Source of the DNA: Halorubrum sp. 2020YC2
Lineage (GTDB): Archaea; Halobacteriota; Halobacteria; Halobacteriales; Haloferacaceae
DNA: 64,000 bases
Direction of reading: 5' to 3'
Assembly: GCF_018623055.1 (NCBI RefSeq)
Contig: NZ_CP076019.1
Coordinates: 2,604,001 to 2,668,000 of the forward strand
Below the pieces are notes generated by a model. That model ran no database searches. It was given only the letters and a program-made list of their open reading frames with translations, and was not told the origin of the DNA. Shown piece after piece: positions 12,937 to 54,380 of the stretch (the stretch's first letter is position 1; every line of letters begins with the position of its first letter). The translations under genes and the position numbers were made by a program.

Positions 12937-13836
12937 ATGCCACTCGCCACCGACGACTTCCTCGACATCGACGACGTGACGCCAGCCGAACTGGACGCCC
13001 TGCTCGACCGCGCCGCCGCGATGAAGGCGGGCGAGACGGACCCCCGACTGGCGGACGCCACGCTCGGGATGATCTTCGAGAAGCCCTCGACGCGCACCCG
13101 CGTCTCCTTCGAGACGGGGATGACTCGTTTGGGCGGCCACGCGATGTTCCTCGGCCCCGACGACATCCAACTGGGTCACGGCGAGCCGCTGAAGGACACG
13201 GCGCGCGTGCTCGGCCGGTACGTCGACGGGGTGATGGCGCGGCTGTTCGACCACGCGGACGTCGAAATCCTCGCGGAGTACGCCGACTGCCCCGTGATCA
13301 ACGGACTCACCGACGAGGCGCACCCCTGTCAGACGCTCGCGGACCTCCTCACGATCCGCGAGACGGTCGGGGAGGACGCGACCGTCGCGTGGGTGGGCGA
13401 CGGCAACAACGTCGGCCAGTCGTTCGTCGTCGGCGCGGCGATGGCGGGAATCGACGTCGAGGTCGCCACGCCCGCCGACTACGGGATGAACCCTGCCGTC
13501 TTCGACCGCGCCACCGAGTTCGGCGCGGACGTGGAGCCGACGACGGACCCCGAGGCCGCGATCGAGGGCGCCGACATCGTCTACACCGACGTGTGGATCT
13601 CGATGGGGCAGGAGGACGTACGCGGCGAGAAGCTGGCCGCCTTCGACGGGTTTCAGGTGAATCAGGACCTGCTCGCCGGCACCGACGCGAAGGTGATGCA
13701 CTGTCTGCCCGCGCACCGCGGCGAGGAGGTCACCGACGACGTGTTAGAGTCCGACCGCGCCCTCGTCTGGGATCAGGCGGAAAACCGGATGCACGCCCAG
13801 AACGCACTGCTCGTCGAACTGCTCGGTGGAGAGTGA
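12937..13836 (+). CDS. argF: Ornithine carbamoyltransferase
   Basis: ArgF makes citrulline from ornithine and carbamoyl phosphate. The carbamoyl phosphate loop STRTR is at residues 51-55, HPCQTLADL follows, and the ornithine-binding HCLPAHRG is at 255-262. The 299-residue length is normal for the catabolic/anabolic archaeal forms. It completes the arginine block: lysW to argE give ornithine, argF gives citrulline, and argG and argH give arginine. A repeat element begins about 30 bases after its stop. Confidence 0.96.
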   Translation: MPLATDDFLDIDDVTPAELDALLDRAAAMKAGETDPRLADATLGMIFEKPSTRTRVSFETGMTRLGGHAMFLGPDDIQLGHGEPLKDTARVLGRYVDGVMARLFDHADVEILAEYADCPVINGLTDEAHPCQTLADLLTIRETVGEDATVAWVGDGNNVGQSFVVGAAMAGIDVEVATPADYGMNPAVFDRATEFGADVEPTTDPEAAIEGADIVYTDVWISMGQEDVRGEKLAAFDGFQVNQDLLAGTDAKVMHCLPAHRGEEVTDDVLESDRALVWDQAENRMHAQNALLVELLGGE

Positions 13837-13868
13837 GGGCAGATCGGATCCAGTCGGGTATGAGACTG

Positions 13869-14184
13869 TTATAAACAGGTGTGCGGTGGCGCGTGCCTGC
13901 GAGCGGCCGCCCTCGGCGGCCGCGAGGAGCACGCGCGAGGGAGTCGCTGGCGCCGACGGCGCCAGCGACGAGGCTGGGGAGGTGTGAGGTGCGGTTGCCG
14001 TGCGGGGCGGGACTCAAAGGGGCAGCCGGGAGGGTAGCGTAGACGACGTAAGTAGCGTGGCGCTACGCGCCACGGAAAGCCGGCGGCGAAGCCGCCGGCG
14101 ACACCGCAACAAGGGAGCGAACGGAGTGAGCGACCAAGTGAGGAGCGCAGCGAGTGTACGCTACCCTCCCGGCTGGGGCTTTGG
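13869..14184 (+). ncRNA. Intergenic structured element, copy 2 (complete)
   Basis: A TATA-like TTATAAA (13869-13875) lies 10 bases before GGTGGCGCGTGCC. P1 has outer arms GCGCGTGC 13889-13896 and GCACGCGC 13929-13936, and inner arms GCGGCCGCC/GGCGGCCGC with GA on both sides. P2 pairs GTCGCTGGCGCC 13943-13954 with GGCGCCAGCGAC 13958-13969. Then come GAGGCTGGGGAGGTGTGAGG and GGGACTCAAAGGGG. P3 pairs AGCCGGGAGGGTAGCGTA 14024-14041 perfectly with 14157-14174. Inside P3 are two extra hairpins with TAC and GAA loops (about 14062-14110), absent from most other copies. The element lies between the convergent argF and tatC1, so it is not a leader of either. Confidence 0.65.
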
Positions 14185-43061: not shown

Positions 43062-43323
43062 TTTATAAATAGCGGCGCGGTGGCGCGTGCCTGCGAGTGG
43101 CCGCCGAAGGCGGCCGCGAGGAGCACGCGCGAGGGACGCGGCGACCGGAGCGAAGCGGAGGGAGCCGCGAGGCTGGGGAGGTGTGAGGTGCCGTGCTGTG
43201 CGGGGCGGGACTCAAAGGGGCAGCCGTGAGGCGGGCGCAGGCGAAGTAAGCACCGCAGGAACGAGCGCAGCGAGTGACGAGGAGCGCAGCGAGCGTGCGC
43301 CCGCCTCACGGCTGGGGCTTTGG
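43062..43323 (+). ncRNA. Intergenic structured element, copy 5
   Basis: TTTATAAAT (43062-43070) lies 9 bases before GGTGGCGCGTGCC (43079). P1 has the standard outer arms; the 3-base helix position is TGC opposite GGA, imperfect, as in copy 2. P2 is CGCGGC/GCCGCG. P3 pairs AGCCGTGAGGCGGGCGCA 43222-43239 perfectly with 43296-43313. The interior of P3 is shorter than in copies 2, 3 and 6. It starts 14 bases after the thiQ stop and runs in the same direction, so read-through from the transporter operon is possible. Confidence 0.65.
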
Positions 43324-43594
43324 AGGTGTCGTCCGTCGAGTTGGTAGCAACTATTTATAAGTAAGCGGCTGGGGCTTTGGAGGTGTCGTCCGTCGAGTTG
43401 GTAGCAACTATTTATAAGTAAGCGGTTGGGGCTTTGGAGGTGTCGTCCGTCGAGTTGGTAGCAACTACTTATAAGTAAGCGGCTGGGGCTTTGGAGGTGT
43501 CGTCCGTCGAGTTGGTAGCAACTATTTATAAGTAAGCGGCCGGGGCTTTGGAGGTGTCGTCTGCCGACTTGGTCGCAGCTATTTATACATAGAC
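43310..43594 (+). repeat. Array of five 57-base modules, four nearly identical
   Basis: Module starts at 43310, 43367, 43424, 43481 and 43538 are exactly 57 apart. The first four modules differ at two or three positions in total (GGCTGGGG or GGTTGGGG; ACTATTTATAA or ACTACTTATAA). The fifth differs at about ten positions and ends in TTTATACAT, and a decayed start GACTGG follows at 43595. Each carries GGGGCTTTGGAGGTGTCGTC and TTATAAGTAAGC. The near-identity indicates recent unit expansion in this copy. The 85-residue gene downstream starts 131 bases later. Confidence 0.85.
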
Positions 43595-51315: not shown

Positions 51316-52668
51316 TCACGCCGCGTGGTCGTTCGCGAACCGCTCCGCAGCGGCGGCGATGGTCGCTCTCGCCCGAACGACCTGCTTCCACGCGATCGTC
51401 TCGTCCGGGTAGTGCGCCTCGTCGATGGTGCCGGGGCCGAACAGCACCGCCGGGATACCGGCCGCGACGAAGTGCCGCGAGTCGGCGCCGTACGTCGCGC
51501 CCCGCGGCTCGGCGTCCGGGAGGCCGGTCGCGGCGAGTCCGGCGCGGACCGCTTCGACGACCGGCTCGTCGACGGCGACCTCGGCCGGCTCGAACTGGAC
51601 GGAGAACCGCTCGAACCGCGGCGGGCGCTCGCGCAGCCATGCGTCCTCGGCCGCGACGCGCTCCAGCCGCTCGTGGAACGCCGCCTCCACCTCGTCGACG
51701 GTCTCGCCGGGCGCGACGCCGATCCGGAACTCCGCGGCGAGCGTCGCCGGGACCGTCGACGCCCACGACCCCGCCTCGACCCGGCCGCAGACGACCGGCC
51801 ACGGGACGGGGAACTCCCCGTACAGCGGGTGCGAGACCGACTCGCCGCGCTCCGACTCCAAGTCCGCGAACGCCTCCCGCACGGCCTCGAAGCGCGGGAG
51901 CACGTCCTCGCCGCGCCAGCGCGTGGCCGCGTGCGCGCTCCGGCCGTCGATCTCCAGCCGGGCCATGAGCGACCCCTCGCAGGCGACGACCGGACGCAGT
52001 TCGGTCGGCTCCGCGACGATCGCCGCGTCGCGCTCGAAGGGGTACGGGCTCGCGAGCGCGGCGGTCGCCGCGCCGTACCCCCCGTCCTCCTCGCCGGCGA
52101 CGGCCTCGACCGCGAGCCGAAGGCCGGCCGACGGGAGGTCGACGGACCCGTCAGCGACCCCCGCTCGCACGTCGAGGGCGGCGCCGACGCAGGCGGCGAG
52201 TCCCGACTTCATGTCGGCCGCGCCGCGGGCGGTGAGCGTCTCGCCGGTCCCGTCGCCGCCGCCGGCCGCGTTCGCGCTTCGCTCAGACGCGTCGCGCCAG
52301 ACCGGTTCGAACGGGTCGCTCGACCACTCGGTCGGCTCTGCGGGGACGACGTCGAGGTGGCCGTTCAGGACCAGCGTCGGGGTCGGATCGTCGCCGTTCC
52401 CGGCTTCGTCCGGGGGCGCCCCGTCGCCCGCGCCGCCGAGTTCGAGGACGCCCGCGACGCTGCGCCGGCCCTCCACGGCCGCCGCCTCGAGGTCGTCCGG
52501 GAAGGAGGGGTGGTCCGCGAGGACGGCGGGGTCGGCGTCCCAGGCGTACGTCTCGAAGCCGAGGGCCGAGAGTCGCTCCGCGACGAACGCGGTCGCGGCC
52601 GCCTCCTCGCCGGCGGTCGAGCGGTGCCGGCAGAGGTCGGCGGCGAACGCGCGCATGTCGAACTCCAT
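51316..52668 (-). CDS. M20 family deacylase/desuccinylase (ArgE/DapE-like)
   Basis: The 450-residue metallohydrolase has LVLNGHLDVVP (first zinc histidine and the catalytic Asp), TARGAADMKSG (bridging Asp), VAGEEDGGYGA (general base Glu) and the late GADSRHFVAAGIPAVLFGPG with the last zinc histidine before DEAHYPDE. A dimerisation domain lies between. It is a paralog of the lysK gene in the arginine block, so it could act on N-acyl amino acids or succinyl-diaminopimelate. ATG 52668 is preferred over the further upstream start because the extra residues are not conserved-looking. Confidence 0.87.
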   Translation of the reverse strand: MEFDMRAFAADLCRHRSTAGEEAAATAFVAERLSALGFETYAWDADPAVLADHPSFPDDLEAAAVEGRRSVAGVLELGGAGDGAPPDEAGNGDDPTPTLVLNGHLDVVPAEPTEWSSDPFEPVWRDASERSANAAGGGDGTGETLTARGAADMKSGLAACVGAALDVRAGVADGSVDLPSAGLRLAVEAVAGEEDGGYGAATAALASPYPFERDAAIVAEPTELRPVVACEGSLMARLEIDGRSAHAATRWRGEDVLPRFEAVREAFADLESERGESVSHPLYGEFPVPWPVVCGRVEAGSWASTVPATLAAEFRIGVAPGETVDEVEAAFHERLERVAAEDAWLRERPPRFERFSVQFEPAEVAVDEPVVEAVRAGLAATGLPDAEPRGATYGADSRHFVAAGIPAVLFGPGTIDEAHYPDETIAWKQVVRARATIAAAAERFANDHAA

Positions 52669-52773
52669 GCTCGCGGCGACGGCGGGGGGTCGGAAACCGT
52701 TTCGGGTGGCGAGGCCGACTCCCACCGCGGTTCTAAACGTTTATCCGTCGGCTGACCCTACAGCGATTCGTCT

Positions 52774-52847
52774 GGGCCGGTAGCTCAGTTAGGGAGAGCG
52801 TCCGGCTTTTAACCGGACGGTCGGGGGTTCGAATCCCTCCCGGCCCG
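52774..52847 (+). tRNA. trnK: tRNA-Lys (anticodon UUU)
   Basis: The 74-base gene folds as a full cloverleaf. Acceptor arms are GGGCCGG (52774-52780) and CCGGCCC (52840-52846), with discriminator G. The D arm is GCTC/GAGC, the anticodon stem TCCGG/CCGGA with loop CTTTTAA (anticodon TTT), and the T arm GGGGG TTCGAAT CCCTC. No intron is present and CCA is not encoded. The tRNA 3' half is the template of the four repeat units that follow directly. Confidence 0.95.
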
Positions 52848-53291
52848 TACACCGAACCGCCGAGCGACAGCGAGGCGGTGAGGGAACCGGCCGAGAGGGA
52901 TTCGAAGCAGGGAACGGAGCGAAGCGGAGTGACCGTGGTTCGAATCCCTCCCGGCCCGTACACCGAACCGCCGAGCGACAGCGAGGCGGTGAGGGAACCG
53001 GCCGAGAGGGATTCGAAGCAGGGAACGGAGCGAAGCGGAGTGACCGTGGTTCGAATCCCTCCCGGCCCGTACACCGAACCGCCGAGCGACAGCGAGGCGG
53101 TGAGGGAACCGGCCGAGAGGGATTCGAAGCAGGGAACGGAGCGAAGCGGAGTGACCGTGGTTCGAATCCCTCCCGGCCCGTACACCGAACCGCCGAGCGA
53201 CAGCGAGGCGGTGAGGGAACCGGCCGAGAGGGATTCGAAGCAGGGAACGGAGCGAAGCGGAGTGACCGTGGTTCGAATCCCTCCCGGCCCG
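52848..53291 (+). repeat. Four tandem 111-base units, each ending in the tRNA-Lys 3' half
   Basis: Units end at 52958, 53069, 53180 and 53291, exactly 111 bases apart, and appear identical apart from their junctions. Each ends with GGTTCGAATCCCTCCCGGCC, the T-arm and acceptor 3' arm of tRNA-Lys. Within each unit, GAGGGATTCGAA is the reverse complement of the T-arm TTCGAATCCCTC, so a hairpin of about 12 base pairs with a 30-base loop can form. Repeated duplication of a tRNA 3' end is what integrase attachment sites produce, but no integrase gene lies near. Confidence 0.9.
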
Positions 53292-53558
53292 CTGTACCGC
53301 CGCGAGCAAAATCGCGAGCGGCGGTGCTGTGCTGAGGGAGGGTTCGAATCAGGGAGCGGGAGGTGAGCGAGCGTAGCGAGCGAACGGGAGCGACTGTGGT
53401 TCGAATCCCGTCGCGCCCGTTCCGCTCACTCCGTTCGGTCACGGGCGCGACTGACCCACGCTCGCTTCGCTCGCGTGGATCCCTCCCGGCCCGCTGTCAC
53501 CGCCGCGAGCAACTCCGCGAGCGGCAGTACTGTGTGAAGGGGGTTCGAACAGCCGGAG
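53292..53558. other. Degenerate tRNA-3'-like repeats downstream of the 111-base array
   Basis: This stretch has no gene. It holds decayed versions of the same pieces: GGTTCGAATCCCGTCGCGCC near 53399-53418, GGATCCCTCCCGGCCCGCTG near 53476-53496, and twice a GTnACCGCCGCGAGCAA...GCGAGCGGC(A/G)G block (about 53294-53325 and 53495-53530). GTTCGAAT and GTTCGAAC recur. The array is therefore longer than its four clean units and fades with distance from the tRNA. Confidence 0.6.
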
Positions 53559-54380
53559 TCACTCCGTGCCGCCGGCCCACTCCAGCGCCGCCCGCCGCCG
53601 GTCGAGGAGCGTGCCGAGGTGATCCGCCTCGACGGTCTCCAGCGTTCCGCCTCGCTCCCCGACGAGCGACCGGACGGGGGCGAGCGGCGTGTTCTCGTCG
53701 CCCGTGCCGTGCCAGGCACGGAGCGGGACGCCGGCCGGGCCCGGGTCGAACGACGCGCTCGCGAACGCCCGGTTCTCGCGTTCGACCGCCCCCGCGCCGC
53801 GGGCGAGGGCCTCGTGGAAGTCGGCAGCCACCGCGTCGGCAACCGACTCGGAGAGGGAGCGGTCGGTGTACTGCGAGACGACGGCGTCGGGACCGGCGAC
53901 CGACGCGAGCGCCTTCGAGATCCGGAACGCCGCGCGCAGCGCGAACGGGACCGCCGCGAGCGTCGCGAGGGCGTTCTCGGCCGGGGGGACGACGCTGCTC
54001 ACCAGCCCGGTTCGGGCCACTCGGTCGTTGTCCGCGGCGGCGAGCGCGAACGGGCCGCCGCCGGAGAACCCGAGGACGCCGGCTCGGTCGACCGACTCCC
54101 AGTCGAGGAGTTCACCGACGTCGTCGCCCCAGTCCCCCCACGACCACTCCGCCGGGGGCGGCGACGAGCGACCGTACCCCGGCCGATCCGGGACGAGAAC
54201 TCGGACGCCGGCCGCGGTCGCGGGCGCCGACAGCAGCGCCCCGAACAGCCGCGACCCCGGGGTGCCGTGGTGGACGACCACCGGCCGGCCGTCGGGGTCG
54301 CCGGCGGTCGCGTACGCGAGGGTGCGTCCGTCGGAGAGGATGCGCGCGTCGGTCGAGAGATCCGCGGACGGAGGCGTCAT
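53559..54380 (-). CDS. Alpha/beta hydrolase
   Basis: The 273-residue protein is an alpha/beta hydrolase. The oxyanion region is HHGTPGSRL, the nucleophile elbow GFSGGGPFAL places Ser106, the acid lies in WHGTGDENTPL and the histidine in VEADHLGTLL. Family members of this small type include esterases and haloperoxidase-like enzymes; no substrate is visible. It is convergent with the tRNA repeat array and alone on its strand. Confidence 0.88.
   Translation of the reverse strand: MTPPSADLSTDARILSDGRTLAYATAGDPDGRPVVVHHGTPGSRLFGALLSAPATAAGVRVLVPDRPGYGRSSPPPAEWSWGDWGDDVGELLDWESVDRAGVLGFSGGGPFALAAADNDRVARTGLVSSVVPPAENALATLAAVPFALRAAFRISKALASVAGPDAVVSQYTDRSLSESVADAVAADFHEALARGAGAVERENRAFASASFDPGPAGVPLRAWHGTGDENTPLAPVRSLVGERGGTLETVEADHLGTLLDRRRAALEWAGGTE

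Follow-up and report, generated by a model that had tools for sequence, protein, structure and literature searches.

What are four perfect 111-bp repeats doing directly behind a tRNA gene, when no integrated element accompanies them? In a 64,000-nt stretch of the Halorubrum sp. 2020YC2 genome (hereafter the window; all features below are on its forward strand unless stated), tRNA-Lys(UUU) is followed by units that each end with the T-arm and acceptor sequence of the tRNA. An earlier sequence-only reading drew attention to these units, to degenerate versions continuing to about 53550 and to an inverted copy of TTCGAATCCC in each unit, and regarded a ladder without cargo or integrase as abnormal. 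It proposed serial att sites, a template for tRNA-3'-like fragments or runaway tandem duplication. To distinguish among these and other possibilities, we analyzed the locus, the rest of the genome, related genomes, and phage, plasmid and viral sequences.

A ladder of hairpin units follows tRNA-Lys

The repeats are real in the assembled sequence, and the observation was correct as far as it went. The tRNA-Lys(UUU) gene occupies 52773–52848 (Rfam tRNA match, 52774–52847), with the discriminator base at 52847; nt 52/53–73 of the tRNA, at 52826–52847, are the source of the copied 3' end. Tandem Repeats Finder reports a repeat at 52826–53291 with a period of 111, 4.2 copies, 100% matches and 0% indels. 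Unit 1 (52848–52958) comprises a linker hairpin (A), an inverted T-arm (52897–52906), a hairpin loop (B) and a direct copy of the tRNA 3' end (52937–52958). Units 2 (52959–53069; inverted T-arm 53008–53017, direct copy 53048–53069), 3 (53070–53180; 53119–53128 and 53159–53180) and 4 (53181–53291; 53230–53239 and 53270–53291) are identical to it. TTCGAATCCC occurs 10 times in the window, 6 times forward and 4 times reverse, always between 52828 and 53409, against 0.14 expected in shuffled sequences. The inverted copy is not limited to TTCGAATCCC, as had been supposed; in the Lys unit the stem runs on towards the acceptor strand, and one unit folds at -63.6 kcal/mol against -38.7 for shuffles (z -6.7).

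Degenerate material indeed continues to about 53550. A fifth, different unit (53292–53419) carries another A type (A4) and B type (B1), and its T-arm TTCGAATCCC at 53400–53409 is joined to a tRNA-Arg-type acceptor end (GTCGCGCCCG, ending at 53419). It is followed at 53420–53493 by an acceptor-class module, two hairpins around an inverted Arg-type acceptor CGGGCGCGAC, which ends in GGATCCCTCCCGGCCCG, i.e., back to a partial Lys end; the same module is found behind the Arg tRNAs. The stretch 53494–53549 is the decayed start of a further unit, an A4-like hairpin plus the remnant of an inverted T-arm.

The array lies between two genes on the minus strand, encoding an M20 peptidase (51316–52725) and an alpha/beta hydrolase (53559–54380). 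At 52733–53442 it leaves long open frames on both strands (150–217 aa, e.g., with repeated GREGFEPRSLRFAPFPASNPSRP), but the two array ORFs tested have no Pfam match, arguing against a protein-coding repeat; such frames are likely spurious proteins in annotations. A scan with Rfam found only tRNA above the gathering score. A 57-bp tandem repeat elsewhere in the window (43309–43587; 4.9 copies, 95% match), with an AT-rich end (TATTTATAAGTAAG), is not related to the tRNA arrays as far as seen.

Own-end copies follow many tRNA genes

If the ladder were an ordinary local duplication or an assembly error at one tRNA, it should be confined to tRNA-Lys. The perfect identity of the four Lys units would fit a very recent duplication or a mis-assembled repeat, and the number four rests on the assembly, a single 3.06-Mb contig. 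We therefore asked whether other tRNAs carry copies of their own 3' ends. An Rfam scan of the genome gave 46 tRNAs; the stretches that we took around them and around other similarity hits contain 48. Of these 48, 22 have at least one downstream copy of their own 3' end (at least 17 of 21 identical, within 500 nt), a count that includes two neighboring tRNA-Asp genes, one of which sees the array and tRNA of the other. The same test with the end of another tRNA succeeds in 3.2% of pairs, and in 22 of 22 cases the own end is the best or joint best of all 48. Two congeneric genomes behave alike: in G110, 16 of 45 tRNAs have a copy and the own end is (joint) best in 16 of 16; in G284, sampled as 20 tRNAs from 19 chosen stretches, the numbers are 9 of 20 and 9 of 9. 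Across the three genomes the off-diagonal rate is 3.0–4.2%. Thus, calling a ladder abnormal understates the case, as ladders are found at about half the tRNA genes of this genome; the genome-wide and class-wide occurrence and the modular A/B structure had not been noticed in the sequence-only reading.

The boundaries of the copied block are sharp. Over 56 copies, identity is 0.84–1.00 from positions -2 to +19 relative to T54 and at most 0.68 beyond, so that the block begins at nt 52/53 and ends at nt 73, the mature end of the tRNA. The 51 inverted arms found cover nt 52–63, with complementarity of 0.61–1.00 from -2 to +9 and background values thereafter. A second, rarer class repeats only the acceptor 3' strand, with an inverted acceptor in between; a strict test finds it at 8 of 113 tRNAs, one of them the Lys T-class array of G110 (off-diagonal at most 0.26%). 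A cluster of about a dozen tRNA hits within 3 kb in G284 (C74:4125–6980) looks like a viral or plasmid tRNA array.

The hairpin pattern is widespread in Halobacteria and rare elsewhere

The pattern GGATTYGAAN{20,50}GGTTCRAATCC occurs in 358 of 391 genomes of the class Halobacteria (82 of 86 genera), and its reversed control in none of the rows. In a sample of the phylum, the pattern is present in 74 of 81 in-class genomes and in 1 of 311 others. The single out-of-class genome, G537, contains a different structure: a tandem array of tRNA-Ala 3' parts in which, at loci L305 and L306, two copies lie about 177 bp apart next to tRNA-Ala genes without the haloarchaeal hairpin. Of 34 class loci read around a match, 31 have the hairpin within 700 nt downstream of a tRNA 3' end, with many different tRNAs. 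A scan of genome contigs with a Lys-unit pattern hit two named records, Halorubrum sp. SD626R and Halorubrum yunnanense Q85, each with a similar but non-identical array behind tRNA-Lys. The same architecture with different sequences at 22 tRNAs here, in other genomes and throughout the class leads us to reject an assembly artifact or single-locus duplication for the family; as an account of the array without wider meaning, it is very unlikely.

No vehicle was found. A search of 50,697 phage and 72,556 plasmid records with the array gave no match. Among viral contigs the hairpin pattern hit at least 120 stretches, with 80 loci listed; however, of the 83 matches re-found on the loci retrieved, 46 lie inside predicted tRNAs, mostly tRNA-Ser(CGA/UGA), because an anticodon arm plus a T-arm fits the pattern. 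Of the other 37 matches, only L127 was resolved: this virus-labeled metagenome contig carries a haloarchaeal-type tRNA-Glu(UUC) followed by one own-end hairpin unit (13744–13945) at its end, and may be provirus flank. Three virus-labeled contigs that do not look haloarchaeal contain near-perfect palindromes built on GGATTTGAACC/GGTTCAAATCC, also with a T-arm-like arm (L173:1103–1163, L191:365–404, L202:2325–2382), with loops that differ between contigs.

Hairpin arms follow the tRNA, and stems co-vary

We next asked whether the arms track the host tRNA. Of 156 distinct pattern matches, we kept the 77 within 700 nt downstream of a same-strand tRNA; those left out include the other-strand readings of palindromic hits. 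tRNA position 57 (A or G), the copy and the inverted arm agree in 75 of the 77 (51 G-G-C, 24 A-A-T; the remaining 2 are A-A-C). Unusual T-loops are followed too: tRNA-Tyr and tRNA-Gly(CCC) have TTCAATT, and their inverted arms read GAATTGA.

The stems inside B co-vary strongly. In 15 hairpins of 55 nt, 98.9% of cells pair and 34 cells change on both sides, against 12.8 in shuffles (0 of 500); in 21 hairpins of 61 nt, 95.0% pair and 33 cells change on both sides, against 10.1 (0 of 500). These hairpins were picked by equal length from the listed matches of the class and phylum scans, leaving out other lengths and without a case-by-case check of orientation to the tRNA; because the sequences are related, the counts are not independent events and both controls have limits.

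Many A and B loops end in GA-(G/A)CG-N-AG-(C/T)-GA, i.e., two flanking G-A positions, a covarying closing pair and a GNA or GNNA loop with N free. In the trailers of this genome, the apical core GA-N-CG(N)AG-N-GA occurs 2.87 times per kb on the sense strand and 0.88 on the antisense strand, against 0.21 in the rest of the window and 0.065 in shuffled trailers. It is present in 44 of 47 trailers with an own-end copy and in 13 of 66 without. Predicted apical loops are GNA or GNNA in 27 of 100, against 4.6% when the loop is shuffled. GNA/GNNA loops closed by G-C pairs form extraordinarily stable DNA mini-hairpins; GCGAAGC has a Tm near 78 °C (PMC4686876). That the apex is recognized by a protein is only our guess. 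The bare loop motif GAGCGNAGCGAG occurs 93 times genome-wide against 55 for the control, and much of this presumably reflects coding composition, so this spread was not used.

These data also bear on a rival model in which the units are transcribed as part of the tRNA trailer and act in RNA, for example as decoys or brakes for tRNase Z and tRNA folding, as terminators, or as stable 3' RNAs, with the inverted arm masking the extra T-arm copies. The A and B cores lie mostly on the tRNA-sense strand (62 against 19 here, 32 against 23 in G110, 21 against 8 in G284), whereas a free DNA hairpin would not need a strand; the copies stop exactly at nt 73, a border that matters for RNA; and the compensatory changes in both stems and the own-tRNA specificity would fit as well. 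On the other hand, 26 of 48 tRNAs lack a copy, copy number at one tRNA varies widely within the genus (see below), no Rfam family beyond tRNA matches at its gathering score, and the RNA minimum-energy fold of tRNA-Lys plus two units mispairs the tRNA acceptor with the downstream copies. G-U pairs are rare in the stems, but tRNA acceptor stems here also have only 3.5% G-U, and we dropped this rarity as an argument for DNA. An RNA device is thus not excluded, but we consider it unlikely; the suggested template for tRNA-3'-like fragments remains hypothetical.

Modules are gained, lost and exchanged

Comparison of relatives had been set beforehand as a test that would refute the observation if all relatives lacked the repeats; they do not. 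Of 52 congeners, 51 have the tRNA-Lys gene, and we read 700 nt of the Lys trailer in 30 loci out of the genomes that matched, the window's own among them. The number of full-length copies runs from 0 to 4, and 25 of the 30 loci carry at least one parsed unit. The 38 units in these 25 loci use 7 A types and 6 B types in 21 combinations, although the number of types is set by the threshold of the greedy clustering (0.35 shared 7-mers). B loops such as CCCTATCAGTCGCGCGCAGCGAAGCGAGCACGTCTGATTCCGG occur behind different tRNAs and in another family of the class.

Other tRNAs show the same dynamics. At tRNA-Arg(GCG) this genome and G284 have one unit, whereas G110 has the exact empty site, the tRNA end being followed at once by the sequence that follows the unit here. 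At tRNA-Leu(UAG) the same A is followed by two different Bs. At tRNA-Leu(UAA) the B loop of G110 is the reverse complement of the one here, the only inverted B loop noticed. At tRNA-Glu(CUC) this genome has two identical units and the two congeners none. Runaway duplication holds for the last step (four identical Lys units, two identical Glu units), but it does not explain the tRNA-specific inverted arms or the occurrence throughout the class. Some B loops carry a nested larger hairpin insertion of up to about 150 nt (loci L033, L014 (own) and L270 (G110)). An AT-rich insertion of about 290 nt, possibly a miniature transposable element, lies inside the A module of a unit in the tRNA-Val(UAC) trailer of G284 (L291).

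Serial att sites are partly consistent with these observations. The block from the T-loop to nt 73 has the geometry of a T-loop att duplication, units behave as exchange modules, and archaeal and bacterial integrases do use the T stem-loop and 3' end of tRNA genes (PMC8371274). A tyrosine recombinase that cuts at the T-loop could move gene-less cassettes between T-loop sites, in the manner of an integron without genes or of remnants of very small integrative elements. However, a search with PF00589 found 5 integrase genes (6 matches) in this genome, of which one (1730976–1731416 of the contig) is near a tRNA; it lies close downstream of tRNA-His (1732092–1732165), which has no ladder, and probably marks a conventional integrated element. 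No integrase or cargo accompanies any ladder tRNA in this genome, and no cargo was seen between units in the 30 Lys trailers; the L291 insertion is the one larger insertion seen elsewhere. Moreover, each cassette fits only its own tRNA, which a single mobile cassette would not. An enzyme-driven att ladder thus appears doubtful, and the three interpretations offered by the sequence-only reading were, taken together, partly supported.

A DNA-level cassette family is the favored interpretation

We favor, with about even confidence, a model in which the 111-bp units belong to a family of short non-coding DNA hairpin cassettes that sit directly behind tRNA genes throughout the class Halobacteria. 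Our analysis establishes the anatomy (A hairpin, 12-nt inverted copy of nt 52–63 of the host tRNA, B hairpin loop, direct copy of nt 52/53–73) and the dynamics: cassettes are gained and lost as exact units, A and B modules shuffle, tandem copies arise, one B loop is inverted between species, and the arms track the tRNA. That the element works at the DNA level is, in contrast, inferred, as is the mechanism. In this view the T-loop-derived arms are the exchange points, through unequal recombination or template switching over 12–22 bp in a polyploid cell with active gene conversion, possibly helped by a tRNA-targeting tyrosine recombinase, although our analysis identified no recombinase. The strongly folding loops, many with a GNA apex flanked by tandem G-A, would be extruded or folded as single-stranded DNA. 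The direct copy would be kept like the tRNA by gene conversion or recent re-duplication, and the inverted arm could be kept complementary by copying across the hairpin, without selection. We think that the element is most likely a selfish or neutral repeat, with the tRNA end serving as a permanently conserved homology anchor, and not a device the cell needs. A bolder reading, which we consider improbable but cannot exclude, is that haloarchaea run a gene-less cassette system on their tRNA genes: folded single-stranded hairpins with stems templated by each tRNA's own T-loop would be cut and rejoined at the T-loop by a dedicated recombinase yet to be found, making every tRNA 3' end an active site that writes, swaps and flips tRNA-specific modules.

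tRNA genes are the classic landing sites of integrative elements, and their 3' flanks are usually treated as neutral. Here, a whole archaeal class carries fast-changing hairpin modules there whose arms follow the sequence of the neighboring tRNA. This provides a natural experiment on how palindromes arise, are corrected, flip and exchange over very short homologies, in organisms that can be manipulated genetically. It also warns annotators that the arrays yield long, likely spurious ORFs and tRNA fragments that look like att sites.

Comparison with known systems

Our literature searches found no description of haloarchaeal tRNA-trailer repeats, which is weak evidence of absence because most subscription journals were not covered. 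Of the systems considered below, the tyrT array, att duplications and REP-like palindromes are not known to combine arms made from the neighboring tRNA with freely shuffled modules. The nearest relative by anatomy is the E. coli tyrT array with rtT RNA (Rfam RF00391), in which tandem units behind a tRNA gene each end with the tRNA 3' end, as they do here; copy number varies between strains, as for the 175-bp rtT VNTR of Salmonella Paratyphi A (PMC2658671). The tyrT array, however, is one locus in enterics, against about half the tRNA genes of a haloarchaeon, and the RF00391 covariance model gave 0 matches at E<=1 in this genome, while its control matched in E. coli only. A tRNA-matched inverted arm and A/B shuffling have not, to our knowledge, been described for tyrT.

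The att duplications of tRNA-integrated elements with T-loop sublocation share the direct repeat from the T-loop to the tRNA end (PMC8371274). They need an integrase gene and cargo between the repeats; the units here are only about 80–250 bp, lack both, have an inverted arm and occur as 0–4 full copies at about 100-nt spacing.

REP/BIME-like and other bacterial palindromic intergenic repeats are likewise short, non-coding, dispersed, strongly folding and variable between relatives, and the haloarchaeal units are dispersed intergenic palindromes in many copies that are absent at some orthologous sites. They differ in being bound to tRNA 3' ends (31 of 34 class loci) with arms made of the host tRNA's own sequence. 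Hairpin-loop inversions of plastid genomes also involve a loop between short inverted repeats that flips between species, as at tRNA-Leu(UAA), but are not known to involve tRNA-templated arms or cassette shuffling. Finally, integron cassette arrays lie behind a fixed site, with units bounded by imperfect palindromes and modules that are exchanged; palindromic unit boundaries and shuffling are seen here from sequence comparison alone, with recombination at these boundaries only putative, but the haloarchaeal units contain no coding cassettes, and their modules exchange at two points, A and B separately.
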